A stretch of DNA of 64,000 nt, from NCBI GenBank assembly GCA_001804705.1, contig MHAY01000018.1, forward strand, positions 1-64,000, written 5' to 3'. The notes beneath the pieces were generated by a model. That model saw only the letters and a list, made by a program, of their open reading frames with translations, was not told where the DNA came from and searched no databases. Numbering within the stretch: the stretch's first letter is position 1; each line of letters starts with the position of its first letter. Source of the DNA: Ignavibacteria bacterium RIFOXYC2_FULL_35_21 (GTDB lineage: Bacteria; Bacteroidota; Ignavibacteria; Kapaibacteriales; UBA2268). Of the stretch, positions 9,725 through 29,889 are shown piece by piece. Made by a program: the position numbers and the translations under genes.

Positions 9725-10786
9725 TTAACAAATTCTTGGTAATTGTTCGCCTGAAAGCATATCAACAATCCTCATGCTACCGATGCTCGTTTTCATTCTG
9801 ACTAAACCCGGATTATCGTCAACTACTTTTCCAATGATTGAAGCATCCTTTCCATAAGGATGATTTTTCATAACCTGTAATACTTTTTCTGCATCATCTG
9901 GAGTTACAAAAATCAAAACCTTTCCTTCGTTAGCAACATATAAAGCATCGAAGCCAAGTATTTCACAGGCTGATTTTACATTGTCATTTATTGGAATTTT
10001 ATTTTCTTCTATTACAATGCCGAGATTTGATGACATTGCTATTTCATTCAACACACTTGCAACACCACCTCGAGTTGGGTCTCGCATCGTATGAACATTC
10101 TTTGATACACTTAATATTTCCTGTACTAATCCATTCAGTGGACAGCAATCGCTTATGATTTCAGATTCAAATTCAAATCCCTCACGCTTGGATAGAATAG
10201 CAATCCCATGTTCAGCTATGCTTCCATTGATTATTATTACATCTCCAGGTTTACAATTCTTTGGTGAAATACTATCATTCTTATCAATAAGTCCGATACC
10301 TGCTGTGTTGATGAAAAGTTTGTCACCTTTACCTTTCTCTACAACTTTTGTATCGCCTGTTACAATTTGCACACCTGCGTTGTCGGCGGCTTGTTTCATT
10401 GAGTTAGATATTTCCCAAAGTTCTTCAATTGGAAACCCTTCCTCGATAATAAAACCTGCGGAAATAAAAAGAGGTTTTGCTCCGCACATAGCCAAATCAT
10501 TGACAGTGCCGTAAACTGAGAGTGAACCAATATCACCACCCGGGAAAAAGATAGGATTGATTACATAAGAATCGGTAGTAAATGCTAATTTCGTCCCGTT
10601 AATATCAAGTATTGCCCCATCATGTTGTAAATTTAATGCGGGATTATCAAAAACTTTTACAAATATTTCATTTATTAGCTGATGGGATAATGAGCCACCG
10701 CCACCGTGTGACAGCAGTATTTGCTTATAATCTCTTATTGGTGCAGGACAAGTCATTCCTGATGTTATTTTATTTTCAATTTCCAT
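9725..10786 (-). CDS. hypE: Hydrogenase maturation protein HypE
   Basis: A 353-residue AIR-synthase-family protein. HypE dehydrates a carbamoyl group placed on its C-terminal Cys by HypF to a thiocyanate, the source of CN ligands for the [NiFe] iron. The essential C-terminus PRIC is present. The ATP-binding features HGGGGS (about 27-32) and DTKVV and the metal-binding TDSYV region are visible. It is the last hyp gene in the order hypA-B-F-C-D-E. Complete. Confidence 0.96.
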   Translation of the reverse strand: MEIENKITSGMTCPAPIRDYKQILLSHGGGGSLSHQLINEIFVKVFDNPALNLQHDGAILDINGTKLAFTTDSYVINPIFFPGGDIGSLSVYGTVNDLAMCGAKPLFISAGFIIEEGFPIEELWEISNSMKQAADNAGVQIVTGDTKVVEKGKGDKLFINTAGIGLIDKNDSISPKNCKPGDVIIINGSIAEHGIAILSKREGFEFESEIISDCCPLNGLVQEILSVSKNVHTMRDPTRGGVASVLNEIAMSSNLGIVIEENKIPINDNVKSACEILGFDALYVANEGKVLIFVTPDDAEKVLQVMKNHPYGKDASIIGKVVDDNPGLVRMKTSIGSMRIVDMLSGEQLPRIC

Positions 10787-10821: not shown

Positions 10822-11913
10822 TCAATTATTAATTCTCCTGTATCTGTAATAAGCCGCACAAGCACCTTCTGATGATACCATAGGAGCACCAAGTGGATGT
10901 TCTGGCTTACACTCTTTCCCATAAGAACTACACTTATCAGGTTTTTTTAATCCCTGCAATATTTCACCAGCAATGCAATTACCTTTTTCAATCCTACCTG
11001 TTTTTTCAAAATTAAAATTAATTAGAGCATCATATTTTTTATATTCATCTCTTAGTCTTAGTCCGCTATTTATAATAGTACCAATACCTCTCCACTCCCT
11101 GTCTTCCTTAATGAAAACTTTATCAATTATTTCCTTTGCTTTTATGTTCCCTTCTTTTGTTACTGTTCTTGAATATTGATTTTCAACTTCACATCGTTTT
11201 TCTGCAATCTGTTTTACTGTCAAATAAATTGCATTCATTATATCGAGTGGTTCAAAACCCGTAGCAACAATTGGAATGTGATATTTATCCGATAAGATTT
11301 CATATTCACTTAATCCCATTACTGTGCAGACATGACCCGCAGCTAGTATTCCATCCAATTTAATTTGAGTATTTGAAAGTAATGCTACTATTGCAGGGGG
11401 TACAAGCATATGTGAACAAATCATAAAATAGTTATTCAAATTCAATTTATCAGCTTCCAGAACAGCCCTTGCATTTGCAGGTGCAGTTGTTTCAAAACCA
11501 ATAGCAAAGAAGACAACTTTTTTTTCAGGATAAGATTTTGCAATTTTCACAGAATCCAAAGGAGAATAAACCAAACGAATATCAGCACCATTTGCTCTAG
11601 CAGTCAGCAAATTTTTTGTTGAACCCGGAACTCTAAGCATATCTCCATAAGAGGTGAGTATTACATCTTCCCTCATTGAAAGCTCGATTGCTTTATCTAT
11701 GAAATTAACAGGAGTAACGCAGACAGGACAGCCGGGACCATGAATCAAAGTAAGATGAGCTGGTAAAAATTCTTCGAGGTTGTATTTTAGAATAGTATGT
11801 GTCTGCCCTCCGCATATTTCCATTATGGATATTTTTCTTGTGGATATATCGTGAATTTTATCAGATACAGCCTTGATTAATTCCTGATTCCTATATTCAT
11901 CAATATATTTCAT
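10822..11913 (-). CDS. hypD: Hydrogenase maturation protein HypD
   Basis: A 363-residue iron-sulfur protein that, with HypC, assembles the Fe(CN)2CO unit. The diagnostic motifs CGGQTH (34-39) and GPGCPVC (59-65) are intact. The C-terminal [4Fe-4S] cysteines lie in the KCSSYGKECKPEHPLG and EGACAAYY regions. It is located between hypC and hypE, and its length is normal. Confidence 0.97.
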   Translation of the reverse strand: MKYIDEYRNQELIKAVSDKIHDISTRKISIMEICGGQTHTILKYNLEEFLPAHLTLIHGPGCPVCVTPVNFIDKAIELSMREDVILTSYGDMLRVPGSTKNLLTARANGADIRLVYSPLDSVKIAKSYPEKKVVFFAIGFETTAPANARAVLEADKLNLNNYFMICSHMLVPPAIVALLSNTQIKLDGILAAGHVCTVMGLSEYEILSDKYHIPIVATGFEPLDIMNAIYLTVKQIAEKRCEVENQYSRTVTKEGNIKAKEIIDKVFIKEDREWRGIGTIINSGLRLRDEYKKYDALINFNFEKTGRIEKGNCIAGEILQGLKKPDKCSSYGKECKPEHPLGAPMVSSEGACAAYYRYRRINN

Positions 11914-12063: not shown

Positions 12064-12294
12064 TTAATAGCTCATAATTTCATTAATCAAATCAATATTT
12101 TTCAGTGCTTCTTCTTCATTTAAAACAATCAGTGCAAAACCGACATGAACTACAACATAATCTCCAACATTAACTTCAGGCACCAAATCAAAGCAAACAT
12201 CCTTAATAATGCCGCTGAAATCCACCTTCCCCATTTTCAAATCTTCATTTGAATTGTCAATCGTAACTATTTTACCCGGGACAGCAAGACACAT
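12064..12294 (-). CDS. hypC: Hydrogenase maturation chaperone HypC
   Basis: A 76-residue HypC/HybG-type chaperone. It starts MCLAVPGK, and the functional Cys2 needed to bind the Fe(CN)2CO unit and the large-subunit precursor is present. It sits between hypF and hypD. Only one HypC-type protein is seen in the window, consistent with one hydrogenase. Confidence 0.96.
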   Translation of the reverse strand: MCLAVPGKIVTIDNSNEDLKMGKVDFSGIIKDVCFDLVPEVNVGDYVVVHVGFALIVLNEEEALKNIDLINEIMSY

Positions 12295-12441: not shown

Positions 12442-14739
12442 TTAAAAATTCGTTATTTTACTTCTGACAATCCAATCAGCGGCGGCAATCTGTCCAAACG
12501 CAATCCCACCGTCATTTGTCGGTACTCTCTGATGCCAGAAAACTTTAAAATTATTTATCTCAAGTAAATCAATCACACCTTCAAGCAAATAACTATTCTG
12601 AAAACATCCTCCGCTTAAAACAATTTTCTCTTCATTAAATTTAAGTGAAACGGAAAGAATTATCTCAATCAATGTGTTGTGGAATTTTGCAGAGACTATA
12701 GAATTTCCTATACCTGAATTAACATCTGATAAAATCTCTTCGATGATTGGCTGCCAATCTATTGTTATAAAACTATCACCAAAAAGATTAAAATGATAAG
12801 AACCTGTTTCATTTGATGAGGCTGTGAATTCAAGATTCATTGCCGCCTGACCTTCGAAGTTTATTTTCTGGTTCAAATTTAAAAGAGATGACACAGCATC
12901 AAAGAGCCTTCCGACGCTGGATGTCATCGGACAGTTTGTTTTATTTCTCAGCATCTTTTCTAATATAGATATTTCCTCAAACGTGAAATTATTTTGAATG
13001 ACAGGAAAATTTAAAGCTGAACTATCATACATTTCATACAATAAGCCAAGTGCAGAACGGCGGGGTTCTCTTATTGCAATCTCACCACCAGGTAAAGGGA
13101 ATTGCCTGCAACTGCAAATGTGCTCACATACATTGTCAGCTACTATGAAAAATTCTCCACCCCAAATAGTTTTATCTAATCCGTATCCGGTACCATCCCA
13201 TGCTACTCCGAGACAGCTTCCTTTAACTTGATTTTCTGCTTTACATGAGGCAATATGTGCAACATGATGTTGAATACTTCTGCTATCAATTTTTAAGTTA
13301 TTGGAAAATTTTGTTGAAAAATAGTCGGGATGAGAATCTTTAACTATTAGCTGCGGTTCTGCCTTATATAGCATTTTAAAATCATCTATAACATTTTTGT
13401 ATGCTTTACAAGCCTCATGAGTTTCCAAATCACCAATATGCTGGCTGACAAAAACATTTGAGCCGACTTTCATTGCAATTGAATTTTTCAATTGACCACC
13501 TGCCGCAAGAATAACCTGATTATTATCTGTCTTTGTATTGTTGTGAATATCATACTCTAAAGGTAATGGGGCATATCCCCTTGCCCTGCGGATTACCATA
13601 ACCTTTCCCTTGACAACACGAACTACAGAATCATCAATATGCCTCAGAATCGGACGATTATGAATAAGAAAATAATCGGCTATATTTTTCAATCTTTCAA
13701 GAGCTTCATATTCATCAATACACATAGGTTCTTCAGAAATGTTGGCGCTGGTGGCTATTATCGGAATATTCAGCTCTTTCATAATTAAATGATGAAGAGG
13801 CGAGTATGGCAGCATTACACCCAAATATGGATTGCCCGGTGCTGCATATTTTGATGGAGAAAGTATTGATGAATATTTTCTTTTTAATAATACAATTGGT
13901 GATTCGGGTGAAAGTAATAAATTTTCTTCAATCTTATCAACATAACATACATCTTTCACAGATTCAAGCGAAGGGAACATCAATGCAAAAGGCTTATCAA
14001 TACGGTTTTTCCTCTCTCTCATTTTAATTATTGCATCATCATTTTGGGCATCACATACTAAATGAAATCCTCCAATCCCTTTTAATGCTGTAATTTCTCC
14101 TGCCTTTATCAATTCAACAAGTTTGAGAATTGCATTATGATGAGTTTCTGTGACTTTTCCTTTATTGTTCCACAATTCCACGTGTGGGCCACATTCAGGA
14201 CAGGCAACAGGCTGGGCATGGTAACGCCTGTTTGTTGGGTCGTCATATTCATTTTGGCAGTAAGAACACATCTTAAAATTTTTCATTGAAGTGTTTTTTC
14301 TGTCATAAGGTATTGCTTCAACAATCGAAAAGCGGGGTCCACAGTTTGTGCAATTGATGAAAGGATACATATATCTTCTGTCTGATGGGTTCTTCATTTC
14401 TCTCAGACAATCATCGCATATTGCTATGTCAGGAAGTATAAATGCTGAAGTCTCGCTTGTTTCCTCGCTTTCAAGAATCCGAAAAGATTTGTAGCTATTT
14501 TTTTCATGAAAGGAAAATTCGAACCCTGTGATTTTTGCTAATGAAGGTTTTTTTTCACGAATAAAATTTATGAAATTATCAAGTGTCTGCTTTTCGCCCT
14601 CACCTTCAATGAGTACGCCTGTCGAATTGTTTTTTATGAATCCTTTTAATTGCAATTCAGAAGCAAGGCGATATATAAACGGACGGAATCCAACTCCCTG
14701 AACCGCTCCCCTGATTGATATTATGACTCTCGATGTCAT
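12442..14739 (-). CDS. hypF: Carbamoyltransferase HypF
   Basis: A 765-residue protein that uses carbamoyl phosphate and ATP to carbamoylate HypE. Domains in order: acylphosphatase (about 1-90, with GAVQGVGFRPF), two zinc-finger segments (CDDCLREM...CTNCGP and CSYCQNEY...CPECGP, about 108-190), a YrdC-like ATP-binding domain (about 205-385) and a Kae1-like carbamoyltransferase domain (about 405-765, with HHVAH and WDGTGYG). Full length. Its start overlaps the hypB stop by 4 nt, so the two are translationally coupled. Confidence 0.96.
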   Translation of the reverse strand: MTSRVIISIRGAVQGVGFRPFIYRLASELQLKGFIKNNSTGVLIEGEGEKQTLDNFINFIREKKPSLAKITGFEFSFHEKNSYKSFRILESEETSETSAFILPDIAICDDCLREMKNPSDRRYMYPFINCTNCGPRFSIVEAIPYDRKNTSMKNFKMCSYCQNEYDDPTNRRYHAQPVACPECGPHVELWNNKGKVTETHHNAILKLVELIKAGEITALKGIGGFHLVCDAQNDDAIIKMRERKNRIDKPFALMFPSLESVKDVCYVDKIEENLLLSPESPIVLLKRKYSSILSPSKYAAPGNPYLGVMLPYSPLHHLIMKELNIPIIATSANISEEPMCIDEYEALERLKNIADYFLIHNRPILRHIDDSVVRVVKGKVMVIRRARGYAPLPLEYDIHNNTKTDNNQVILAAGGQLKNSIAMKVGSNVFVSQHIGDLETHEACKAYKNVIDDFKMLYKAEPQLIVKDSHPDYFSTKFSNNLKIDSRSIQHHVAHIASCKAENQVKGSCLGVAWDGTGYGLDKTIWGGEFFIVADNVCEHICSCRQFPLPGGEIAIREPRRSALGLLYEMYDSSALNFPVIQNNFTFEEISILEKMLRNKTNCPMTSSVGRLFDAVSSLLNLNQKINFEGQAAMNLEFTASSNETGSYHFNLFGDSFITIDWQPIIEEILSDVNSGIGNSIVSAKFHNTLIEIILSVSLKFNEEKIVLSGGCFQNSYLLEGVIDLLEINNFKVFWHQRVPTNDGGIAFGQIAAADWIVRSKITNF

Positions 14740-15389
14740 TGTGATTTTACCTCATACAAAAGAAATTCGCACCACTCATTAATTCCTTCCATTGAGGTGC
14801 AAGAAACTTCGAAAACTTTTAAACCTGAATTTATTGAATGAGCATTCTTTATGATTGTATCAACATCGCAATTCACATGAGGCAATAAATCAATTTTATT
14901 AATTACGAGTACCTCAGAATTTCTGAATATTGCAGGGTACTTCAGAGGTTTATCGTCTCCTTCGGTTGTGCTGATGATTACCACTTTCATTTCTTCGCCA
15001 AGGTCATAAGCCGCCGGGCAAACAAGATTGCCGACATTTTCAATGAATAATATGTTTATGTCAATATCATTTAATTTTTGGAAAGCATCCCTGACAAGCA
15101 TTGCATCTAAGTGGCAGGCACCATTTGTAACAATCTGGACAACAGGAACGCCCAGTGCGTCAATCCTCTGGGCATCGATATTCGTCTGGACATCACCTTC
15201 GATAACAGCAATGTTCATTTTCTCTTTTAACAATTTAATTGTTTGTTCGATTAAACATGTTTTTCCCGAACCCGGCGAACTGACCAGATTCAAAGTGAAC
15301 ATCCCTTTGAATCTAAATTTTTCGCGATTGATGTTGGCAATTTCATCATTCTTTTCGAGAATTTTTCTTTCAACGGTAATTAAACTCAT
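14736..15389 (-). CDS. hypB: Hydrogenase nickel-insertion GTPase HypB
   Basis: A 217-residue SIMIBI GTPase that delivers nickel with HypA. The Walker A SSPGSGKT (37-44), the metal-site motif NGACHLDA, the NLVCPAAYDLGE region and the base-specificity NKIDLL are present. There is no His-rich N-terminus, so nickel storage is left to the His-rich permease loop or other proteins. It is preceded by hypA with an 11-nt gap. Confidence 0.96.
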   Translation of the reverse strand: MSLITVERKILEKNDEIANINREKFRFKGMFTLNLVSSPGSGKTCLIEQTIKLLKEKMNIAVIEGDVQTNIDAQRIDALGVPVVQIVTNGACHLDAMLVRDAFQKLNDIDINILFIENVGNLVCPAAYDLGEEMKVVIISTTEGDDKPLKYPAIFRNSEVLVINKIDLLPHVNCDVDTIIKNAHSINSGLKVFEVSCTSMEGINEWCEFLLYEVKSQ

Positions 15390-15400
15390 ATTTATTCCTT

Positions 15401-15745
15401 TCAGTCGTTAAGCTCAATTTCAATAACGTTTAACTCTGTACCCGTAAGAATTTCAACATTAGCACTTTCACATGAATTACAGAAGAAAAAAGGTTCTTCG
15501 AGGGTTGAAATATACCCACAGTCCTTGCATTTCACGGTCAATGGTATTTTGCTAATTATTAATTCAGCACCTTTCAATTCTGAATTTTCAGTCCTTACTT
15601 CAAAACCGAAGCTTAATGCTTCCGGTAAAATATTGCTGAATTCGCCAACTTCAACTTTAACCGATTTAACGGACACATGATTATTTTTTGGCAAATAACT
15701 TTTAACAATTTCAATAATTTCCTGTGCGATTGATACTTCGTGCAT
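15401..15745 (-). CDS. hypA: Hydrogenase nickel-insertion protein HypA
   Basis: About 114 residues from the chosen start. The ATG at 15745 is preferred over one three codons upstream because HypA needs the N-terminus Met-His-Glu (here MHEVSIAQ) to bind nickel. The zinc-ribbon cysteines CKDC and CNSC are present in the C-terminal half. First gene of the hypABFCDE run, divergent from the DsrC-like gene. Confidence 0.94.
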   Translation of the reverse strand: MHEVSIAQEIIEIVKSYLPKNNHVSVKSVKVEVGEFSNILPEALSFGFEVRTENSELKGAELIISKIPLTVKCKDCGYISTLEEPFFFCNSCESANVEILTGTELNVIEIELND

Positions 15746-15938
15746 TTTATACAATTAACAACACATTTTATACAAACATTATGTAAAATAACAAAAATTT
15801 GATAATTTGGTTTTTTAAAATTTATATTTCTTAAAATATTTATGAAATATTACAAATTACAACATTCATTTATACCAGCAGATGTACATTTTATTGTTTT
15901 CTCAGGGGATTAATGTAAAAGATGATGAAGGTGAAATT

Positions 15939-16592
15939 ATGGAAAAGTTAGTTATTAATGACAAGGAATACCAGCTTGATTCATTCGGGTTCCTTGCAAA
16001 TGTTGACGATTGGGATGAAAATTTTGCAAAAGGCATGGCACTTAATTTAGAAATACCGGATGGCTTGACAGACAACCACTTGAAGGTTATTAATTACATC
16101 AGGGAAGTTTTTAAGAGAGACAACACATGCCCGACAGTATATGATACAATGGAACATTTTAATTTTAATATCGGCGAATTCAGGAATTTGTTTCCTGACG
16201 GTTATCAGAGAGGTGCCTGCAAGTTAGCCGGTATAAGCTATGCTCGAGGATACCTCACATTACACACTCTTAAAAAAGTTCATACGTTACCGTTATCAGA
16301 GGAAACAAAGTCTTACAGGATTAATTCCAAAGGTTTCCTGATTGACTGGACCGAGTGGGACGAAGAATTTGCACTTAACACGGCAGATGAATTAAAAATG
16401 CCGAATCTGCTAACTGATAAACATTGGGAAATAATTAAATATTTGCGAAATCATTTTGAAAAAGGGCAATCGGTTCCAAACATATATCAATTGTGCGACG
16501 ATAATAGCATCACACTCGATGAACTGAAAGACCTGTTTCCCGATGGCTACCACAGGGGGGCTGTTAAAATCGCAGGCTTACGTATAAAATAA
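15939..16592 (+). CDS. Tandem fused DsrC/TusE-like protein with one CysB-type cysteine
   Basis: Two DsrC-like domains in one chain. Numbering from an upstream ATG at 15882, repeat 1 is about 21-125 and repeat 2 about 143-236. The ATG at 15939 is the likely start (GAAGGTG upstream; the first domain begins right after it). Each repeat shows the family pattern: GFL...W in the N-terminal strand, a helix with LTDNH or LTDKHW followed by IxYxR, and FPDGY(Q/H)RGA-x-K(L/I)AG at the end. Repeat 1 keeps the CysB-equivalent (RGACKLAG, Cys113), but the C-terminal CysA arm is missing. Repeat 2 has Val at that position (RGAVKIAG) and also lacks CysA. Cys83 and Cys205 lie elsewhere. DsrC proteins carry sulfur or partner HdrD/DsrK-type CCG proteins, and such proteins are encoded 8-11 kb away. 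The fold assignment is strong; the function is open. Confidence 0.8.
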   Translation: MEKLVINDKEYQLDSFGFLANVDDWDENFAKGMALNLEIPDGLTDNHLKVINYIREVFKRDNTCPTVYDTMEHFNFNIGEFRNLFPDGYQRGACKLAGISYARGYLTLHTLKKVHTLPLSEETKSYRINSKGFLIDWTEWDEEFALNTADELKMPNLLTDKHWEIIKYLRNHFEKGQSVPNIYQLCDDNSITLDELKDLFPDGYHRGAVKIAGLRIK

Positions 16593-16663: not shown

Positions 16664-17101
16664 TTAACCTCGGACTCCGTTAATGTAGTCCCTGAGGTAT
16701 TTATTTTCATATTGAATAATCTTGCTTTGGGCTTTGACAATATCACCGATTGAAACAAGCCCGACTAATTTATTATTTTCAACAATGGGAACATGACGTA
16801 TGAACTCACTCGTCATAACCATTTCGATATAATCAATATCATCGTCGGGTTCGGCTACTATGGTCTGCTTTGACATAACATTTTTAATGAGCAATTTCTG
16901 AAAATTATCGGGATACTTGAAGCATAATTCCAGTATATCCCTTTCGGTGATAATACCCGTCAAATCTCCACTAATATTCAATATGACAAGAGAACCGATG
17001 TGGTTCCTGTGCATCATATCTATAGATTCCTTAACTGTCCTGTCTTCCCCGATGCTATAGACATGAGGGCCTTTTGATTTTAAAATTTCACTTACTTTCA
17101 T
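16664..17101 (-). CDS. CBS-domain pair protein
   Basis: A 145-residue stand-alone protein with two CBS domains (about 8-65 and 72-130), showing the repeated pattern HIGSLVILN...LTGIITERDIL and HVPIVENNKLVGLVSIGDIV. Bateman modules bind adenine nucleotides or NAD(H) and often tune partner activity. It is downstream of the hydrogenase large-subunit gene on the same strand, so it may sense energy state for the hydrogenase locus. The partner is unknown. Confidence 0.88.
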   Translation of the reverse strand: MKVSEILKSKGPHVYSIGEDRTVKESIDMMHRNHIGSLVILNISGDLTGIITERDILELCFKYPDNFQKLLIKNVMSKQTIVAEPDDDIDYIEMVMTSEFIRHVPIVENNKLVGLVSIGDIVKAQSKIIQYENKYLRDYINGVRG

Positions 17102-17410: not shown

Positions 17411-18946
17411 TTACCTCGTAATTACTTCTAATAAATTCTTGTCTTTATCATATATACTTAATTTCAATGGCATACTCCCGGGCAATGAATGTGTAGCACA
17501 TCCATGACAGGGGTCATACGCCCTGAATGCCATTTCAATCATGTTCAATAAACCATCATTAACATTAAAATCATGAATAAGTGCTTTGGCACTTTTCTCC
17601 ACACTCATAGCAATTCGGGCAGAATTATTTTGAGTAGCAACAATTAAATTTGCTTTAACTATTAATCCTTTCTCGTCAGTTTCATAATGGTGAATTAAAG
17701 TTCCACGCGGAGCTTCAACAACACCTATACCGACTTTCGGTTCGTTAACAGATATAGTCCTCAACTCTTTGCCAGTAATTTCCGGCATAGATAATATTTC
17801 ATTAATCCTTTCGCCGGCATAAATCATCTCGATTACTCTTGCCCAATGATTAGCTAGAGTATGGTGAACAGGCTTACCTCCTAATGTCTTGAACATTTCA
17901 TCATAAGCTTTTTGTGCTTGAGGTGTTGCCATGCCATCAGCGGCATTAAGCCTTGCAAGAGGTGCAACGGAATATATGCTTGTGTCACGCCCGTCAACAA
18001 AGCCATGCCAGCCTAATGGTTTCAAATAATTAAATTTGACATAGCTCCAAGGCTCAACATGCTCGGCAATGTAATCAGTGTAATCCTGAACCGGGAATTT
18101 TGCCCACTCTGCGCCAATCGTATCTACAACACGGATTTTCCCGTCATAAAAATTCACTTTATTATTCTCGTCAACCAGTCCCATATAATAGGTTTGATGT
18201 GTGTAAGCATCTGAAGTAATCAACTTGACATATTCTTCATTCTTGAGAACAATATCCTTGAATATTTGTAAAGTGAACAAAGCAAAGTCAAGTCCGTCTT
18301 TTCCTACTTTCTGAAATCTCGGTAATTCTTCGGGTGGTAAACCTTTCGCAACTCCACCAGGCAAGCCGAGAACGGGATGTATTACTTTCCCTCCCAAAAA
18401 AGTAATCAGTTCTCTCAACTCACGACGCATCGAAATCACTTTTTTTCCTATATCAATTCCTACTTTCTGAATAACACCAATAACATTTCTTTGTTCTTTC
18501 GGTGCATCGGGACCTACAACGAAGTCGGGACCACCAAGAATATAAAAGTGAAGAGCATGGTCCTCAAATGTAAAAAGGTTATAGACAAGCTCCCTAATGA
18601 GTTTTGCCGTAATTGGCGGTTCAACTTTGTAAAGGTCATCCAAGGCTTTGGTCGAAGCCATGTGGTGAGCTGTCGGGCAAACGCCACAAATACGGCTCGT
18701 GATTTGAGGCATATCCTCTGCGGGCCTGCCACGGCTGAAAACTTCAAAGCCCCTCAACTCAGGCACCTGGAAATATGCTTTTTCGACATCACCTTTGTCG
18801 TTAAGGAAGATGTCAATTTTCCCGTGTCCTTCGAGCCTAGTGATTGGGTCAATCAGTATCCGCCTTCTATTCATATAGGTCTCATCAGCTTTCTTCATAG
18901 CTTCATTAAACTTTTTTTTGATTATTTTTTCCATTTTAATCACCAT
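17411..18946 (-). CDS. mvhA: Group 3 (Mvh/Frh-like) [NiFe] hydrogenase large subunit
   Basis: A 511-residue catalytic subunit. The N-terminal nickel ligands lie in RICGVCPTAHH (Cys87, Cys90). The C-terminal ligands lie in DPCHGCATH (Cys480, Cys483). SLPGSMPLKLS follows, giving a 25-residue C-terminal extension after the last His. Motifs and companions (MvhD, HdrA) place it in group 3 (3c-like). The ATG four codons inside (18934) has a better upstream GGTGA and is an alternative start. It is separated from the small-subunit gene by cupin and ECF-like genes. No maturation endopeptidase gene is seen in the window. Confidence 0.93.
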   Translation of the reverse strand: MVIKMEKIIKKKFNEAMKKADETYMNRRRILIDPITRLEGHGKIDIFLNDKGDVEKAYFQVPELRGFEVFSRGRPAEDMPQITSRICGVCPTAHHMASTKALDDLYKVEPPITAKLIRELVYNLFTFEDHALHFYILGGPDFVVGPDAPKEQRNVIGVIQKVGIDIGKKVISMRRELRELITFLGGKVIHPVLGLPGGVAKGLPPEELPRFQKVGKDGLDFALFTLQIFKDIVLKNEEYVKLITSDAYTHQTYYMGLVDENNKVNFYDGKIRVVDTIGAEWAKFPVQDYTDYIAEHVEPWSYVKFNYLKPLGWHGFVDGRDTSIYSVAPLARLNAADGMATPQAQKAYDEMFKTLGGKPVHHTLANHWARVIEMIYAGERINEILSMPEITGKELRTISVNEPKVGIGVVEAPRGTLIHHYETDEKGLIVKANLIVATQNNSARIAMSVEKSAKALIHDFNVNDGLLNMIEMAFRAYDPCHGCATHSLPGSMPLKLSIYDKDKNLLEVITR

Positions 18947-18979: not shown

Positions 18980-19345
18980 TTATCTTGCTGTTGAGAAAAC
19001 ATAAATATATTTCAACGGCTCACTGCCTGCATTGAATATGTTGTGCTGTGTTTGCGGCGGTATATATACTGCGCATCCGTTGTCAATCCTCTGTTTGCCG
19101 AGGCCTTCAGCTTCGACTTCACCGGTGCCGGACAGAATTATAAGCAATTCCTCTTTATTTTCAGTATTATGTGACCCGACATCCTGCCCGGATTGGAGAG
19201 TAACGAGTCCGGAACGCATAGTATAGCTCATGGAATCGTTAAGTATTTTAAAATAACTACTTCCGTCGTTCGGAAGAGTTAAAATGAGCGGTTTAAGACT
19301 TTTCCGTTCCTGAATATTATTTTCCGATTTATTTTTAAATGTCAT
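18980..19345 (-). CDS. Small cupin-domain protein
   Basis: A 121-residue single cupin. Motif 1 is partly altered (GSHNTENKEELLIILSG, with one His and a Glu); motif 2 reads PPQTQHNIFNAG. It may bind a metal or small ligand. Its start overlaps the stop of the ECF-like gene by 4 nt (ATGA), so the two are coupled, and both lie between the hydrogenase small- and large-subunit genes. A function in hydrogenase metal handling is only a contextual guess. Confidence 0.8.
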   Translation of the reverse strand: MTFKNKSENNIQERKSLKPLILTLPNDGSSYFKILNDSMSYTMRSGLVTLQSGQDVGSHNTENKEELLIILSGTGEVEAEGLGKQRIDNGCAVYIPPQTQHNIFNAGSEPLKYIYVFSTAR

Positions 19346-19908
19346 TGATTATCCTTTATAAATTTTCGTTCCTTTTTAATCCAAAAACCGGCAAGAAAAG
19401 GAAGTAAGATAATCTGGCAGACCGCAGCAACAGCACCGGGTAGAAATGCCGCTTTCAAATAACCGTTAAAGCTTAATGGCAAAGTGTTAAAAATAATTTG
19501 GGAGAAGATAAATATAATTCTGCCAAGAATTAATGCGACTGCAATTGAAATAAAGGAATTTAATCCAAGCCTCTCCCTAAGAAATCCGGTGATAAAGCCA
19601 TAAGCCGCCAGTTCCAGCATCATCGAAGGCAAAGAAATCGGTGATGGAAGGCCTGATAATAAAAAGCTTATTAGTGGAGCAGAAATTCCAATTAATAACC
19701 CGCTGCGCCACCCGTAAACCAAACCCGCAAGTATCACGGGCCAGTGCATAGGTAAAAAAACTCTTACAGGCGCTCCCGATAAATGAGCAAGGGAAGGCAA
19801 TATAAGCGCTGAAGCAATGAGTATTATTTGAAATAGATAACTCCGGATTCCTGAAATTGCCAATGTCGGCTTTGTTACGGAATTAATCGTTTCAGAGTAA
19901 TATGTCAT
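19342..19908 (-). CDS. ECF-transporter S-component-like membrane protein
   Basis: A 188-residue protein with about five or six hydrophobic helices and the short loops typical of ECF S components (PVILAGLVYGWRSGLLIG, FITGFLRERLG). The substrate cannot be read from the sequence. Location between hydrogenase subunit genes and next to a cupin suggests a vitamin or metal needed for hydrogenase or Hdr function. No energising EcfA/EcfT genes are in the window, so it would rely on a shared ECF module elsewhere. Confidence 0.65.
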   Translation of the reverse strand: MTYYSETINSVTKPTLAISGIRSYLFQIILIASALILPSLAHLSGAPVRVFLPMHWPVILAGLVYGWRSGLLIGISAPLISFLLSGLPSPISLPSMMLELAAYGFITGFLRERLGLNSFISIAVALILGRIIFIFSQIIFNTLPLSFNGYLKAAFLPGAVAAVCQIILLPFLAGFWIKKERKFIKDNQ

Positions 19909-20145: not shown

Positions 20146-21114
20146 CTATATATTTACCTTCTTTCTCAAAATAGAACCCGCCAGGCTATAACGATAGAAT
20201 GTTCCCACGGGGTCAGGTATTCCATTAAGAACAGCATCAATTTCTTTTTCAGTTTTAGCTGAAACATTAGATGCAATTGATGATAATATTTTCGCCCCCT
20301 GGTCTTTAACCCGTGAAGTAGGGCCATAACACCCCGTACAGGGCATGTTTCCGTTAACACACAAGGCTCCGCATCCGCTTCGGGTTGCGGGTCCCATGCA
20401 GACAAATCCCTGCGAAAGAATACACTTTTCAGGGTCAATAATATGTAAATTTGGACGCAGGAATTCTGTGAATGCCAAATCGGTTGGCTTTGTATCTTTT
20501 CTCGGGCATTCATCGCAGAGAGCTATGTCAGGAGCAAGGACAGTACCTTTCGGAGGTAAATTCCCCGACAACAAAACCAACACAGCTTCTTTCAATAATT
20601 TCGGAGAAGGCGGGCAGCCGGGAATATAATAATCTACATCAATAACTTTGTCCAGAGGCCTAACTACATTCCACAATTCCGGCAAAAATACTTCAGAACC
20701 ATTAACTTTATATTTAAGTTGAGGCCTTACTTTTTCTTCATTTATTATTGAGGGAGATTCTTCATATACCCATTTTAAAATTTCTTCTTTCTGAAATTCG
20801 TTAGCAAGCCCCGGTATTCCTCCGTACTGGGCGCATGCACCGTGGGCAATCACAACTTTGCTCTTCCTGCGAAGAAGCTGAACCATTTCCTGCTGTTCGG
20901 AAGTGCGTATTGCACCGTTAATCAGTGATGCAACAATCTCACCATCGGCATATTTTTCCACATCCGATTTCTTAAAGTCCATGGCAACAGGCCAGAAAAT
21001 AATATCAACATTATCAACAACAAAGAGAATGTCTTCGGCAAGGTCAACAACCGATTCTTCGCAGCCTCCGCATGAGGCACACCAGTAAAAAGCTAATTTA
21101 GGTTTGTCAGGCAT
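20146..21114 (-). CDS. mvhG: Group 3 [NiFe] hydrogenase small subunit (MvhG-like)
   Basis: The start is set at 21114, where AAGGAGG lies 7 nt upstream; the frame runs nine codons further. About 322 residues. The proximal-cluster motif CASCGGCEE is near the N-terminus, followed by HGACAQYGGIPGLA and PGCPPSP, and then Cys-rich segments for two further [4Fe-4S] clusters (CDECP, CGALC, CTGCYG). No signal peptide, so it is cytoplasmic. Its start overlaps mvhD by 8 nt. It transfers electrons from the [NiFe] site to MvhD. Confidence 0.94.
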   Translation of the reverse strand: MPDKPKLAFYWCASCGGCEESVVDLAEDILFVVDNVDIIFWPVAMDFKKSDVEKYADGEIVASLINGAIRTSEQQEMVQLLRRKSKVVIAHGACAQYGGIPGLANEFQKEEILKWVYEESPSIINEEKVRPQLKYKVNGSEVFLPELWNVVRPLDKVIDVDYYIPGCPPSPKLLKEAVLVLLSGNLPPKGTVLAPDIALCDECPRKDTKPTDLAFTEFLRPNLHIIDPEKCILSQGFVCMGPATRSGCGALCVNGNMPCTGCYGPTSRVKDQGAKILSSIASNVSAKTEKEIDAVLNGIPDPVGTFYRYSLAGSILRKKVNI

Positions 21115-21619
21115 ATACTTCCTCCTTCCCAGCAATTTCACTTTCTAAAACATTCATCTCATTAGCCCACTCTTTGTATTTAACAGGCAATCCGAGAGGT
21201 CCCAGAGCCTTGATTTTTGCAACCATGTCATTAACGACAATCCTTACTTTATCTCCTTCCGAAGCAGAAATCCACTCGAGGCGTAATCTATCTTTCTCGA
21301 TACCGAGTGAATCAACAACCCTCCTTAACATCTGAAATCTTCTCAGGAATTTATAATTACCTTCCTGGTAATGGCAATCGCCCGGATGGCATCCTCCTAT
21401 CAGCACTCCATCGGCTCCCTTGGCAAACGAATCGAGAATAAACTGCGGGTCAACCCTTCCGGAACACATCACCCTGATTACCCTGATATTCGGAGCATGT
21501 TTGATTCTCGAAACACCTGCTAAGTCTGCGGCAGTGTAGGTACACCAGTTGCAAAAGAATGCAACGATTTTCGGCTGCCATTGCTTAGAGGCGGCTTCTT
21601 CAATTTCAATTTTCAGCAT
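21107..21619 (-). CDS. mvhD: MvhD-type [2Fe-2S] hydrogenase delta subunit
   Basis: A 170-residue MvhD/FrhD-family protein that docks the hydrogenase to HdrA. The Cys pattern CNWCTY, RVMCSGRVD, GCHPGDCHY is complete. It overlaps the hdrA stop (ATGCTGA), with GGAGG in the last hdrA codons. In the HdrABC-MvhADG complex this subunit passes electrons from MvhG to the bifurcating flavin of HdrA. Confidence 0.95.
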   Translation of the reverse strand: MLKIEIEEAASKQWQPKIVAFFCNWCTYTAADLAGVSRIKHAPNIRVIRVMCSGRVDPQFILDSFAKGADGVLIGGCHPGDCHYQEGNYKFLRRFQMLRRVVDSLGIEKDRLRLEWISASEGDKVRIVVNDMVAKIKALGPLGLPVKYKEWANEMNVLESEIAGKEEVYA

Positions 21620-23619
21620 AAAGCCTCCTCCATTTTGTAATTCAATATTCCGTCAATTTCACTGTAAATTTCCTCATCTTCAAACAGATTCTGTTTGATT
21701 GAACCCGAAGGACATGACGCAACGCAAGTACCACAGCCTTTGCACAATGCTTCGTTAATGCTCGCCTTCTTTTTCACTTCATCATAAGATATAGCTGTAT
21801 AAGGACAAAGCGGAACACAGGATTTACAACCCGAACATTCTTCTTCGACTATAAATGCAGTATTCGGTTCGAGTTCGATATATCCCAAATCAATTAGTGC
21901 TAATGCCTCAGCCGCAGCAGCACCTGCCTGTGCTACTGTGTCAGGAATATCCTTAGGCCCCTGACAGCATCCTGCTAAAAAGATTCCATCTGTAAATGTA
22001 TTCACCGGTGCCAACTTCGGATGTCGCTCGATGAAGAATCCCTCGGTCGAGCAGGATATATTGAGCATCCTCCTTACATCCTGTGCATCATCTCTTGGGA
22101 CCAATCCCGTAGATAAAACAACCATATCTACAGGCACTTTGATAATTTCACTGATTAATGTGTCTTCTGCTTTAACGATCAACCTTCTATGCTCCTCATC
22201 ATTCGTATCCGGGTAAATGTCTGCCACTCTGCCTCTTATGAATTTTACTCCTTCTTCAGATATTCTGGTATAAAACTCATCCATCATTTTTCCTGGAGTG
22301 CGAATATCGATATAGAAATTATATATGTTTGCGTGAGTGTGTTCTTTGAGGAGATGAGCCAGTTTCAATGAATACAGGCAGCATACTCTCGAACACCATA
22401 AATTAGTATTTTTATCCCTCGAACCTACGCAATGAACGATTGCTATTGACTTAGGCCTGCTGCCGTCTCTCATAACTACTTCACCCGATGTAGGGCCGGA
22501 GGCGTTTATCAGCCTTTCCACTTCGAGTGCTGTATATACATTAGGATAGGTGCCGTAGCCGTAATAGTAAACTTTCTTTGCATCAAAAGGTTGAAAGCCC
22601 GTTGCTACTATTATTGTTCCGACTTCGATTTCTTTATATGTCGGTTGTTGGTTCAGGTCAACTGCTTTCCTATCGCAAACCTCGACGCATGTTTGTTTAC
22701 ACTTTCCCGTTTTAAACCAAATACATGTTTCAGGGTCAATGACGACAAGCTGTGGGGTAGCCTGCGGAAAGGGCATATACACAGGTTTTCGCTTTGACAA
22801 TCCCTGGTTAAATTCATCAAAGAACCTCGGCTCTTTATATACGCAGGCTTCTATGCAATCGAGACAGCCGACACATAAATCATCTATAATATATCGTGGT
22901 TTCCTTTTAACTTTTACCTGGAAATTTCCCACATAACCGTCAACGCTGACTACTTCGGAATAAGTCCACATTGTAATGTTGGGATGATTCTTGACAGCCG
23001 ACATTTTCGGTGTAAGAATACATGCCGCACAATCGAGAGTAGGAAATGTCTTGTCGAACATTGCCATGTGTCCGCCGATTGTCGGGTCTCTTTCGACAAG
23101 ATACACTTTCTTACCTGCATTTGCTAAAGTCAGTGAAGCGTGAATTCCTGCAATTCCGCCTCCCACAACCAGCACATCAGGTTTTATTGGAACTGTTTTT
23201 TTCTCAAGAGGTTTGTGAAAAGCGACCCTGTTAACAGCAGACCTAACCAAATCCATCGCCTTATCTGTTGAAGCTTCAGGGTCAAGATGTACCCAAGCAT
23301 TCTGTTCACGAGTATTGACCATCTGAAAATAGAATTGATTCAATCCTGCCTGCGATGTGGCATTACGAAATGTACGCTCATGCAGCAAAGGAGAGCAGGC
23401 GGCAACGACAACCCTGTTCAGTTCATTATCTTTTATATCCTTCTGAATCATTTCCTGCCCGGGGTCAGAACACATATATTTATAGTGTTTTGATACTACA
23501 ACATTCGGAAGAGTAGCTGCATAATCAACGACCTTCTGAACATCAATAATGCCTGCAATGTTTGTTCCGCAATGGCAGATATAAAAACCTATTTTTATTT
23601 TTCCGTTTGTACTTGACAT
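21613..23619 (-). CDS. hdrA: HdrA, flavin-based electron-bifurcating subunit
   Basis: A 668-residue HdrA. An N-terminal CHCGTNI domain is followed by the FAD-binding VVGGGIAGI (about 150-160), the [4Fe-4S] insert with DDLCVGCLDCIEAC, the thioredoxin-reductase-like body and two C-terminal ferredoxin clusters (CSGCKSCVPLCP and CKGCGTCVASCP). A GGAGG site lies within the last codons of the preceding gene. HdrA splits or merges electron pairs between H2, ferredoxin and a disulfide or other acceptor. It sits between the CCG protein and mvhD. Confidence 0.95.
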   Translation of the reverse strand: MSSTNGKIKIGFYICHCGTNIAGIIDVQKVVDYAATLPNVVVSKHYKYMCSDPGQEMIQKDIKDNELNRVVVAACSPLLHERTFRNATSQAGLNQFYFQMVNTREQNAWVHLDPEASTDKAMDLVRSAVNRVAFHKPLEKKTVPIKPDVLVVGGGIAGIHASLTLANAGKKVYLVERDPTIGGHMAMFDKTFPTLDCAACILTPKMSAVKNHPNITMWTYSEVVSVDGYVGNFQVKVKRKPRYIIDDLCVGCLDCIEACVYKEPRFFDEFNQGLSKRKPVYMPFPQATPQLVVIDPETCIWFKTGKCKQTCVEVCDRKAVDLNQQPTYKEIEVGTIIVATGFQPFDAKKVYYYGYGTYPNVYTALEVERLINASGPTSGEVVMRDGSRPKSIAIVHCVGSRDKNTNLWCSRVCCLYSLKLAHLLKEHTHANIYNFYIDIRTPGKMMDEFYTRISEEGVKFIRGRVADIYPDTNDEEHRRLIVKAEDTLISEIIKVPVDMVVLSTGLVPRDDAQDVRRMLNISCSTEGFFIERHPKLAPVNTFTDGIFLAGCCQGPKDIPDTVAQAGAAAAEALALIDLGYIELEPNTAFIVEEECSGCKSCVPLCPYTAISYDEVKKKASINEALCKGCGTCVASCPSGSIKQNLFEDEEIYSEIDGILNYKMEEALC

Positions 23620-23622
23620 AGT

Positions 23623-24819
23623 TCAATCCTCCATTGCTTCACAAACTAATTCCATAATATCCTTCACGGCCATTTTCTTGTCGTAACCGGCAACTTTGAG
23701 AGCATCTTCAAATCTTGGTATTTCATAAGGACAGACAACTGCAAGAACATCAGCACCCGTATCAATTGCCTCTCTTATTCTTATGTCAGAGAGACGCTCC
23801 ATGTTTTGCGATTTAAAATAAGTGTCGAGCCACATTCCTCCTCCTCCTCCTCCGCAGCAAATTGAATTGATACGGTTATGCACCATCTCAATCAATTTCA
23901 CTCCCTGTATTGATTTCAACAATGTCCGCGGTTCTTCATAATAATTATTATGTCTCCCAAGACAGCATGAATCATGGTATGTGACAGAGTATCCCAGTGT
24001 CTTTCTAAGCATAGGTTTCAACTTATCGAGATATTGCATGACGAAAGGCACAATGTGTGTTACGTTAGGTTTGAAGCCATACATTTTATATCTGAAATTA
24101 AAAGCATCGAGTGCATGAGGGTCGGAAGTAATTATTCTGTTAAATTTATACTTGCTAAGAATAGCCATGTTATAATCAACGAGAGCTTCAGCCAAACCTG
24201 ACTCCCATGATAACAAACCACACTCGCCGGCGCTCTTCTCTTCATTACCGAGAATAGCAAAATCAACATCCAGGGCAGATAGTATTTTAGCAATTGCCCT
24301 GCATGTGTCCTGTCCTCGCGGATGATAAGCCGGATAGCTCTCGACAAACCATAAAACGTCAACCGGCTCGGGATTCTGGCTCAGTATGCGTATTGGCACA
24401 GTCGAAGTCTGCACCCAGTTAGCCCTTTTTCTGCCTGATTCGCCCATCGGATTGCCATAGCGGTAATTATTTTCAAGGGCTTTTTGCAGTTCGGGTGGCA
24501 CCACAGGAAGTTTGATTACAGTCTGCTCTTTCACTAATTGGAGAAGAACTTCTGTTAAATGAATTTCTCTCGGACATTTCATCATGCAGGCATAACAGTT
24601 GACACACTTCAACATGCTGTCGGTGTTAAATACCTTATCAATCAAGCCGTGTTGAAGCATTTTAATTATTCTTCTCGGAGGGTAATCCATATATTCACCA
24701 TAGGGACAAGCTCCTGCACATGTCCCGCATTGAATACAGGTCTGAATCAGCGTCCCTTCGGACGAATCATAAATTGTGTCGAGCGTTACACCTCTAATCG
24801 CATCAAGTTCAACAATCAT
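23623..24819 (-). CDS. HdrD/HdrCB-like iron-sulfur protein with CCG domain
   Basis: A 398-residue soluble protein. Two [4Fe-4S] motifs come first (CIQCGTCAGACP, about 32-43, and CVNCYACMMKCP, about 73-84), then a CCG region with DSCCLGRHN and ICCGGGGGG. It therefore joins HdrC-like and HdrB-like functions in one chain; no separate hdrB/hdrC is present. It ends 4 nt before hdrA starts. The C-terminal half is clearly paralogous to the end of the membrane protein at 25044-27020 (shared RYGN, TYHD-C, EPPR or EEPR, CCG). Likely acceptor module of the HdrA complex. Confidence 0.88.
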   Translation of the reverse strand: MIVELDAIRGVTLDTIYDSSEGTLIQTCIQCGTCAGACPYGEYMDYPPRRIIKMLQHGLIDKVFNTDSMLKCVNCYACMMKCPREIHLTEVLLQLVKEQTVIKLPVVPPELQKALENNYRYGNPMGESGRKRANWVQTSTVPIRILSQNPEPVDVLWFVESYPAYHPRGQDTCRAIAKILSALDVDFAILGNEEKSAGECGLLSWESGLAEALVDYNMAILSKYKFNRIITSDPHALDAFNFRYKMYGFKPNVTHIVPFVMQYLDKLKPMLRKTLGYSVTYHDSCCLGRHNNYYEEPRTLLKSIQGVKLIEMVHNRINSICCGGGGGGMWLDTYFKSQNMERLSDIRIREAIDTGADVLAVVCPYEIPRFEDALKVAGYDKKMAVKDIMELVCEAMED

Positions 24820-25043: not shown

Positions 25044-27020
25044 TCATCCCATTGCTTCAAATACCAACTCGGAAATATCCTTCACTTCAATCTTCTCTTC
25101 ATTCCCAGTAGTTTTGATGGCATCCTGAAACATTACTATATCTTTCGGACATGCAACAACTAAAGTCGAAACATCTTTCAGCGACACAGCCTCACGGATT
25201 CTGTTTTCCGAGGGGCGTTCTTTAACCGGTGTTTTATCTTCCATCCATATTCTTCCCCCGCCTGCACCACAACAGTAACTCTTAGCCTTGTTCCTTGGCA
25301 TTTCGACAAGGGTTATTCCAATTGATTTCAAAATCTTTCTCGGCGGTTCATAAACTCCGTTGTACCTTCCCAGATAGCAGGGGTCATGGTATGTTGCCCT
25401 GATGTTTAGTTTTTTATTAACAGAAAATTTATTATTTCTTATCAGTTCGTCAATAACTTCTGTATAGTGATGAACGCTTATACTATTGCCATTTGCATTT
25501 AATTTATACTCATTTTTAAGTGTGTTATAAGTATGCGGGTCGGTCGTAATAATTTTCTTGAATTTTGCTTTTTGCATTGATTGAATATTTTTCTCTTTTA
25601 CTATCTCGAACAGCCCTTCCTCGCCTATCCTACGGACATCATTCCCCGAATTTTTTTCTGCTTCATATAAAATACCAAAATCCAAACCTGCCTTTTGGAA
25701 AATCATAGCAGTTTTCTGAGTTATTCCCTGCAATCTCGTATCAAAAGCTGCATAATCGCCTGTAATCCAGAGATACTCAACTTCTTCCTTACGTGCATCC
25801 TTAATTTTCGGTTCAAGTGTAGTTACCCATTTTGCCCTGTTGCGGTCGGACTGTCCGAAAGAGTTTCCATAGCGGGTGATTTTTTGCAATACATCCTGAA
25901 CAGTCTGCTCGACTTCACCCTGATTAATAAGGAAACGCCTCATCGAAACAATCACAGGAATGTGCTCATTCAAAACAGGGCATTGCTGCATACAGGACAT
26001 ACAAGTCGTGCATTGCCACAATTCTTCCTTCGATATTTTTTCTGCGAATAATTCAGGTATTCCATTTCCTGTTGACTTAAATCCTGTTTCATACATCTGT
26101 TCTTTAATTTTATGAAGAATGACTCTCGGAGCAAGGGGCATACCAGAGTTAAGTGCAGGACAAGCCCTGTCGCATCTTCCGCACTCGGCACATGAAAAGC
26201 TGTTCAGCAAATCTTTCCAAGTGAATTCATTCCATTTGGAAGCACCTGTTGTAACATCCTCGCTTTTTGAGTTTATAGTTAAATCGGCAGGCTGGCTGTT
26301 GTTTCTGAATAACACATTGAATGGGGATGCAAGCAGGTGCATATGTTTTGAATAGGGTATATAGGCTAAAAAGAAGAGAACTGCGATTATGTGTACCCAC
26401 CAGAAAGCTTTGAATGCAGCTATTGCAGTACTTTCCGATATTCCCGTTAATCCAGATGCAATAATACCTCCAATTGGACTCCACACTGAAGCCTCTAAAG
26501 TACCATTATAGCCCTGTCCCAGTAACAATGTAATCATTAGTATTGCTATCAATGATAATATTATTACAGCATCAAAAGATTGCTGCAAATGAGCTGGCGG
26601 GAAAAATATTCTCCTTAACACAGCAACGATGATTGACAGAATTACCAATACACCTGTTATTTCGAGGGCGAGGGCAACAATTCCTACCTCGTCTGAATAA
26701 GGTATCGGAAGAACCGGTATAAGCCCTCTAATCAGGTTCCACCAGAACGAGCCGGCATAGAAGACAAAACCCCAAAAGAAAAAGAAATGAGGAAGTCCTA
26801 TTGTCCGTTCACCAAATATTTTCTTTTGCCCTAATACAAATAGAATAAAATTTACAATGTGCTCTTTAATATTTTCAAATCGGTTTTCAGGCTTTGCTTT
26901 TTTTAGAATCCCAACAATTTTAACTATTCTTCTCAGAAAAAAGAACATTGAAATTGCCGTCAATACCCACAGAATATAAACTCCCTGAATACCATAAATA
27001 TTAATATCAACCGGATCCAT
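25044..27020 (-). CDS. Membrane ETF:menaquinone oxidoreductase (EMO-type; cytochrome-b-like + FeS + CCG)
   Basis: A 658-residue fusion. Residues 1-245 form a NarI/HdrE-like membrane domain of five or six helices with several His suited to heme b. Residues about 270-350 carry two [4Fe-4S] motifs (CAECGRCDRACP and CTTCMSCMQQCP). Residues about 390-658 carry a CCG domain (YHDPCYLGRYN, YCCGAGGG). This architecture, next to etfAB, is that of the membrane-bound EtfAB:(methyl)menaquinone oxidoreductase of Geobacter and syntrophic fatty-acid oxidisers. It would connect acyl-CoA oxidation through ETF to the quinone pool. The etfA gene lies immediately upstream. Confidence 0.88.
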   Translation of the reverse strand: MDPVDINIYGIQGVYILWVLTAISMFFFLRRIVKIVGILKKAKPENRFENIKEHIVNFILFVLGQKKIFGERTIGLPHFFFFWGFVFYAGSFWWNLIRGLIPVLPIPYSDEVGIVALALEITGVLVILSIIVAVLRRIFFPPAHLQQSFDAVIILSLIAILMITLLLGQGYNGTLEASVWSPIGGIIASGLTGISESTAIAAFKAFWWVHIIAVLFFLAYIPYSKHMHLLASPFNVLFRNNSQPADLTINSKSEDVTTGASKWNEFTWKDLLNSFSCAECGRCDRACPALNSGMPLAPRVILHKIKEQMYETGFKSTGNGIPELFAEKISKEELWQCTTCMSCMQQCPVLNEHIPVIVSMRRFLINQGEVEQTVQDVLQKITRYGNSFGQSDRNRAKWVTTLEPKIKDARKEEVEYLWITGDYAAFDTRLQGITQKTAMIFQKAGLDFGILYEAEKNSGNDVRRIGEEGLFEIVKEKNIQSMQKAKFKKIITTDPHTYNTLKNEYKLNANGNSISVHHYTEVIDELIRNNKFSVNKKLNIRATYHDPCYLGRYNGVYEPPRKILKSIGITLVEMPRNKAKSYCCGAGGGRIWMEDKTPVKERPSENRIREAVSLKDVSTLVVACPKDIVMFQDAIKTTGNEEKIEVKDISELVFEAMG

Positions 27021-29862: not shown

Positions 29863-29889
29863 ATTTGGACTCCTGACATATATTTTCAA

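Follow-up and report, generated by a model that had tools for sequence, protein, structure and literature searches.

The window analysed here, positions 1 to 64,000 of contig MHAY01000018.1 from Ignavibacteria bacterium RIFOXYC2_FULL_35_21, harbors a gene encoding a protein made of two fused DsrC-like domains, hereafter the tandem protein (Table 1). The gene lies between a set of hyp genes and a hydrogenase locus, in a neighbourhood that is as an earlier note on this DNA had described it, with hypA, mvhADG, HdrA and two CCG proteins. The adjoining CBS gene accompanies the tandem gene in three genomes of one genus (G000, G275 and G276), and both are missing in a fourth (G277). Aligned across three sister genomes, the divergent promoter region between the hyp and tandem genes (15755-15938 in the window) is conserved and AT-rich, with no clear operator. 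Between mvhA and mvhG, the window has genes for a cupin and a small membrane protein (18980-19908) that are missing in G275, G276 and G277.

Table 1. Tandem DsrC gene, its repeats and its neighbours, with positions in the window.
Feature	Positions	Strand	Basis
Tandem DsrC gene P0001, 217 aa	15939-16592	+	ORF, profile matches; start codon conserved in G275 and G276
DsrC repeat 1, residues 1-105, with arm-like GISYARGYL	15939-16253	+	Profile, alignment, structure
Cys64 of CP motif (NTCP)	16128-16130	+	Conserved in 71/73
Cys94, CysB-type cysteine (Cys113 of the earlier note)	16218-16220	+	Conserved in 73/73
Tyr105 at CysA place of repeat 1	16251-16253	+	Alignment
DsrC repeat 2, residues 122-217, ends GLRIK, without C-terminal arm	16302-16589	+	Profile, structure
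Cys186 in repeat 2, not CysA/CysB site	16494-16496	+	Conserved in 71/73
Val209 at CysB place of repeat 2	16563-16565	+	Alignment
hypE	9725-10786	-	Synteny; name read from sequence
hypD	10822-11913	-	Synteny; name read from sequence
hypC	12064-12294	-	Synteny; name read from sequence
hypF	12442-14739	-	Synteny; name read from sequence
hypB	14736-15389	-	Synteny; name read from sequence
hypA, divergent neighbour of tandem gene	15401-15754	-	blastp synteny in G275, G276, G277; name read from sequence
Two-CBS-domain protein	16664-17101	-	Profile, synteny
[NiFe]-hydrogenase large subunit, VhuA/MvhA-like (group 3c type)	17411-18946	-	Profiles
Hydrogenase small subunit, VhuG/MvhG-like	20146-21141	-	Profiles
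MvhD/FlpD	21107-21619	-	Profiles
HdrA-like	21613-23619	-	Profile
CCG protein, HdrC/HdrD-like	23623-24819	-	Profiles
Membrane CCG protein, TmcB/DsrK/HdrD-like	25044-27020	-	Profiles

Two domain profiles each recognise two stretches of the tandem protein, with scores of 139.1 bits for Pfam PF04358 (DsrC; cut-off 24.9) and 113.9 bits for NCBIfam TIGR03342 (cut-off 53.5), and in a whole-genome scan the two halves scored 71.7 and 70 bits separately. By profile score and fold, the protein is a member of the DsrC/TusE superfamily. The gene has evolved under purifying selection, with dN of about 0.14 and near-saturated synonymous change. A chance ORF or pseudogene is ruled out by the profile scores, the pattern of synonymous and non-synonymous change and conservation across the family; a plasmid-borne gene was also rejected, with no match in the plasmid collection. 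A longer ORF exists from an upstream, non-conserved start at 15882, while the start at 15939 is common to two sister genomes (MDK versus MEK). Because these two genomes begin at the 15939 position, the CysB-type residue is numbered Cys94; Cys113 counts from 15882.

Repeat 1 (GACKLAGISYARGYL) aligns with GACKVAGLAKPTGCV of the genome's own DsrC in such a way that CysB is kept and CysA is replaced by Tyr105. The arm region reads GISYARGYL in repeat 1 versus GLAKPTGCV, and is truncated in repeat 2 only, the C-terminus of which is GAVKIAGLRIK, with Val209 in place of CysB and no arm. The earlier note had assigned a lone CysB-type cysteine to repeat 1, no cysteine to repeat 2 and loss of the CysA arm to both. 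The CysB-type cysteine is indeed kept, but as Cys94 and in the company of Cys64; repeat 2 has no cysteine at either the CysA or the CysB site, but does carry Cys186; and CysA is missing throughout, with repeat 2 truncated, but repeat 1 retains the arm-like sequence. Similarly, a trisulfide between CysA and CysB is impossible within the molecule, as had been argued, but a mixed disulfide with the two-cysteine DsrC of the same genome could still form.

An AlphaFold2 model built from a 73-row alignment of tandem members (mean pLDDT 84.6, pTM 0.70, linker 104-121 at low confidence) was compared with known structures. Foldseek returned eight significant matches, all to the DsrC family, and VIA-align matched domain 1 to the DsrC structure 2xsj (Z 17.1 over residues 2-103) and domain 2 to the DsrC-family sulfurtransferase 7syb (Z 14.0 over residues 124-217). 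The predicted structure thus has the DsrC fold in both halves, with AlphaFold2 and VIA-align in agreement with the sequence, and bears out the proposed fusion of two DsrC-like domains. Helix-turn-helix parts of LexA, Rex, NemR and sigma region 4 were also matched, at Z about 4; these values are within the range of unrelated helical models and are not counted as evidence.

A scan of GTDB representative contigs with tandem-alignment patterns, which may overlook single-domain or more remote relatives, identified 80 tandem loci in some nine phyla, each spanning both repeats. According to record titles and tree labels, the carriers belong to the Zixibacteria, Acidobacteriota, Desulfobacterota, Myxococcota, Planctomycetota, Calditrichota, Electryoneota, Abyssobacteria and Bacteroidota/Ignavibacteriota, with one to four tandem copies per genome; the culturable Desulfobulbus elongatus (L184) is one of the carriers. 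Two of the loci, L170 and L172, are interrupted by frameshifts or by the assembly. The presence of 80 loci in many phyla rules out a one-off fusion in the window's genus. Within the window's order (123 genomes), full tandem proteins were found in G000, G275 and G276, of one genus, and in G231 and G235 (two copies).

Across 73 aligned members, Cys94 is invariant (73/73) and sits on the GYxRGACKxAG helix of repeat 1, Cys64 and Cys186 are each conserved in 71, and Cys71 is conserved in 64, being Met in the window's genus. CysA occurs in none of the 73 members, with no Cys 8-14 residues after Cys94 in any of them, and the CysB site of repeat 2 is occupied by V, I or L in all. On a tree of the repeats, inferred from a short alignment and weak in its inner branches, both repeats group apart from 14 single-domain DsrC-type sequences (100/99), and repeat 2 forms one side of a branch at 100/99. 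The simplest reading is that a diverged DsrC domain was duplicated internally, once and long ago; alignment, tree and co-occurrence support this origin and a later spread of the family, with gain of further copies, among bacteria that carry out dissimilatory sulfur metabolism. A tandem DsrC is not described in the open-licence literature searched, and the passages of dsr papers retrieved there mention ordinary DsrC only; the tandem-DsrC family is undescribed so far.

The link to sulfur metabolism is apparent in the genome of the window itself. This genome (4.15 Mb, 97.75% complete) encodes dsrA and dsrB above NCBIfam cut-offs with dsrOP beside them (contig C58), a two-cysteine dsrC with dsrMK-like genes (contig C34) and aprA (contig C29), so that the reported lack of dsrAB and tus genes is true of the window but does not extend to the dsr complement of the genome. 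At one locus of this genome (L005, 5124-10105), the gene order is dsrL-like, dsrC, dsrM-like and dsrK-like, where the dsrL and dsrM names rest on gene order and sequence reading. A dsrL-dsrC-dsrM2-dsrK2 order is reported for Candidatus Thermonerobacter (Kapabacteria) in PMC6338057. The host is probably an organism of the Kapabacteria type that carries out dissimilatory sulfur metabolism.

Analysis of 50 carrier genomes, drawn from many phyla and including the sister genome, revealed a DsrA-probe match in 46, mostly a full dsrA; among these matches, that of G314 is weak and of the DsrB type only, and that of G340 consists only of fragments at a contig end. dsrA was not detected in the remaining four of the 50 carriers, namely two Planctomycetota, one small Zixibacteria MAG and one Abyssobacteria MAG. 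The tandem loci of these two Planctomycetota (L126 and L143 in G320 and G330) are nearly identical. In the taxonomic family of the window (54 genomes), dsrA is present in 14 genomes, which include all five tandem carriers; by simple counting, with kinship ignored, the probability of this overlap is 2002/3162510, or about 6e-4. The earlier suggestion of a non-sulfur role is contradicted by this co-occurrence among carriers at large and within the family, as well as by tandem copies located in sulfur operons. Most carriers also encode a single-domain DsrC, indicating that the tandem protein does not replace it.

Hydrogenase neighbourhoods are the second recurrent context. In a sample of 44 carrier genomes with 74 tandem genes, a PF00374 hydrogenase-type gene occurs no more than 10 kb away from at least 18 tandem genes, in at least 10 genomes, where hydrogenase number and genome size predict 0.77 genomes; at 5 kb the count is at least seven genomes, compared with 0.41 expected (Poisson probabilities of about 1e-8 and 3e-7, respectively, with kinship ignored). 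In one of the 10 genomes (G352), the matches include a NuoD-like subunit beside a further hydrogenase. Mapped on the tandem tree, the hydrogenase label requires eight changes, of which at least four are forced by supported branches. These results support a recurrent hydrogenase neighbourhood of tandem genes, which, as the earlier note had anticipated, appears in unrelated genomes far above chance. The operons involved are of several types, named here and in Table 1 after the closest NCBIfam models, all of which scored below their equivalog cut-offs. In L108 and L111, two or three tandem genes come after an Mvh/Vhu-like operon (MvhGA; group 3c type) and the maturation protease. In sulfhydrogenase-like (group 3b type) operons the position of the tandem gene varies: hypB and hydB flank it in L122, hypE or a response regulator precedes it in L115, L116, L128, L136 and L137, and an HdrC-like gene lies shortly before it in L166. 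In L152 and L180, a VhuA-like subunit occurs with further electron-transfer subunits.

The association is nonetheless not a strict one, in either direction. A Mvh/Hdr/CCG/Etf cluster is present in eight of the 54 genomes of the window's taxonomic family, but G277, of the same genus, has a complete hypA-mvhA junction without the tandem and CBS genes, and G160, G245 and G263 likewise contain the cluster without a tandem gene, whereas genera g107 and g109 (G231 and G235) harbor tandem genes without MvhA or a CCG protein. Since gene and cluster occur without each other, the tandem protein is not an obligate partner of the Mvh/Hdr/CCG complex, and the earlier proposal of a ligand of this Hdr/CCG cluster in particular is not supported; a facultative link is possible. 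In the window, the cluster ends with a Cytidylate_kin2 (PF13189) protein (29053-29889), as it does in several genomes of the family (L102-L105), and proteins of similar appearance (cluster 29) lie near tandem genes in L166 and L178. A recombinase-like gene (30501-31550) beside the cluster has relatives of 50-64% identity in the same place in L102 and L104.

Tandem genes also occur in other contexts. In L157 the gene and the beginning of an HmcF/DsrK-like CCG gene overlap, and in L163 it follows a DsrM-like/DsrK-like pair. An APS kinase gene adjoins it in five loci (L121, L160, L174, L152 and L180), in L149 (438-5045) and L150 (7276-11801) it separates the cysW-type permease gene of a sulfate ABC transporter from the ATPase gene, and in the Zixibacteria locus L129 (10001-12878) it is located 11 bp before a NifS-SelD fusion. 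Taken together, these neighbourhoods concern redox, sulfur and selenium and are not confined to Hdr. In the Desulfobacterales, a CobW-domain GTPase with a long N-terminal part lies beside tandem genes in L161, L165 and L179.

Because every member examined lacks the C-terminal CysA, the tandem proteins, as judged from their sequences, cannot act as a sulfur-delivering DsrC. We tentatively favor, with somewhat less than even confidence, a role as a thiol-redox adaptor or regulator. Together with Cys64, Cys94 would provide the two-domain protein with a single thiol site that may be reactive; the second copy of the helix, in repeat 2, is thiol-free. Cys94 could then form a mixed disulfide or persulfide with the DsrC or sulfide pool of the cell, and the tandem protein would bind the redox module encoded next to it, or alter the expression of that module, such that hydrogen and sulfur metabolism would follow the state of sulfite reduction. 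The module is most often a group 3 [NiFe]-hydrogenase, and the operons suggest that different paralogues may address different neighbouring modules. Three findings count against an adaptor or regulator: the patchy distribution of the gene (7 of 297 Desulfobacterota genomes), its absence from the hydrogenase loci of G277, G160, G245 and G263, and the fact that in most carrier genomes no hydrogenase was seen near a tandem gene. A more general form of the idea, which we consider unlikely, is a sulfur-redox signalling adaptor whose Cys94 would form an intermolecular heterodisulfide or trisulfide with CysA of normal DsrC and whose paralogues would pass this state on to group 3 hydrogenase, CCG electron transfer, sulfate uptake, APS kinase and selenium metabolism; if true, such signalling would connect sulfite reduction with hydrogen metabolism at the protein level, in a way not described before.

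The tandem protein could instead be a dedicated electron or sulfur carrier, with the Cys94 thiol (together with Cys64) cycling to a disulfide or persulfide. The reductant would be the hydrogenase or Hdr/CCG protein encoded nearby, in the way that DsrMK or FlxABCD-HdrABC reduces DsrC. This explanation, which revives the proposed redox ligand but within sulfur metabolism, is a possible if rather doubtful one. It is consistent with the conservation of Cys64 and Cys94, with copies adjoining HmcF/TmcB/DsrK-type CCG proteins (L157, with overlap, L163 and L141) or HdrA-like genes (L155), and with the nature of group 3b and 3c hydrogenases, soluble enzymes whose electrons go to soluble carriers. Yet the sulfur-presenting residue of DsrC, CysA, is missing in all members, many copies have no redox enzyme nearby, and in the window's taxonomic family the gene and the Mvh/Hdr/CCG cluster occur apart. 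PMC10504309 also reports that D. vulgaris DsrC interacts with FlxABCD-HdrABC, in favor of such a carrier. A DsrC mimic devoid of chemistry of its own, which would bind DsrC partners (DsrAB, DsrMK) and modulate their activity or hold them near other modules, would explain why both repeats retain DsrC core and helix sequences despite the loss of CysA, and why carriers so strongly co-occur with dsrA; it would not, however, need an invariant Cys94, nor does it sit well with the four carriers in which dsrA was not detected, and we regard it as improbable.

Transcriptional regulation of the RspA kind, in which a helix-turn-helix-like part of each repeat would bind promoters such as the divergent hyp/tandem one, appears quite improbable. 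The divergent position between the hyp and mvh operons in the window's genus, the weak LexA, Rex, NemR and sigma region 4 matches, and the response regulators or histidine kinases found within 3 kb in 18 of the 80 loci point in this direction, but those matches are no better than unrelated helical models, the calculated pI is mostly acidic (median 6.1; 5.3 for the window protein), copies are often mid-operon, and the most conserved helix is the thiol-bearing one. For the adaptor or regulator favored here, the mostly acidic charge and the conserved thiol-bearing helix lead us to lean towards a protein rather than a DNA target. A hydrogenase assembly or maturation factor, to which copies among hypA/B/D/E genes or after a maturation protease could be attributed (L122, L132, L136-L139, L108 and L111), is very unlikely: the same hydrogenase loci lack the tandem gene in G160, G245, G263 and G277, this hydrogenase is present in three of the five carriers of the window's taxonomic family, most copies elsewhere are near none, and a maturation role would leave the copies in sulfate transporter and APS kinase operons unexplained.

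Comparison with known members of the superfamily places the tandem family apart from each of them. The tandem protein shares with canonical DsrC the fold of both repeats (VIA-align Z 17.6 to 3or1 and 14.9 to 1sau), a CysB on the GACK helix, in repeat 1, and an occurrence in dsrAB genomes, but differs in its two fused domains, the absence of CysA, a GYxRGA instead of a GPxxGA motif, its separate clade and the presence of a normal DsrC in the same genome. TusE, which keeps the C-terminal cysteine, belongs to the same superfamily (TIGR03342), whereas the tandem family keeps the other cysteine, CysB, and the window's protein scores 60.9 bits against the TusE equivalog NF008562 (cut-off 191). RspA, the regulatory sulfur-related protein reportedly named by Venceslau et al. 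in 2014, is a superfamily member unable to perform DsrC chemistry, with a proposed regulatory role for which conserved cysteines are not known to be needed. The tandem protein resembles it in belonging to the DsrC superfamily and being unable to carry out DsrC chemistry, but is a tandem protein with one cysteine invariant in 73 of 73 members. In the FlxABCD-HdrABC and DsrMK systems, a protein of the DsrC type acts together with Hdr/CCG proteins (PMC10504309), and some tandem genes adjoin CCG genes of this kind, their putative partners; the DsrC of those systems has both cysteines, however. With the sulfur-presenting cysteine removed, the other kept, the domain duplicated and its genes recurring in soluble-hydrogenase operons of dsr genomes, the tandem family constitutes a concrete candidate link between hydrogen turnover and sulfite reduction in sulfate reducers. 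Pfam and NCBIfam profiles recognise these proteins only as members of the TusE/DsrC/DsvC superfamily, and profile-based DsrC surveys may count them as DsrC; length, the missing CysA and the GYxRGA motif tell them apart.
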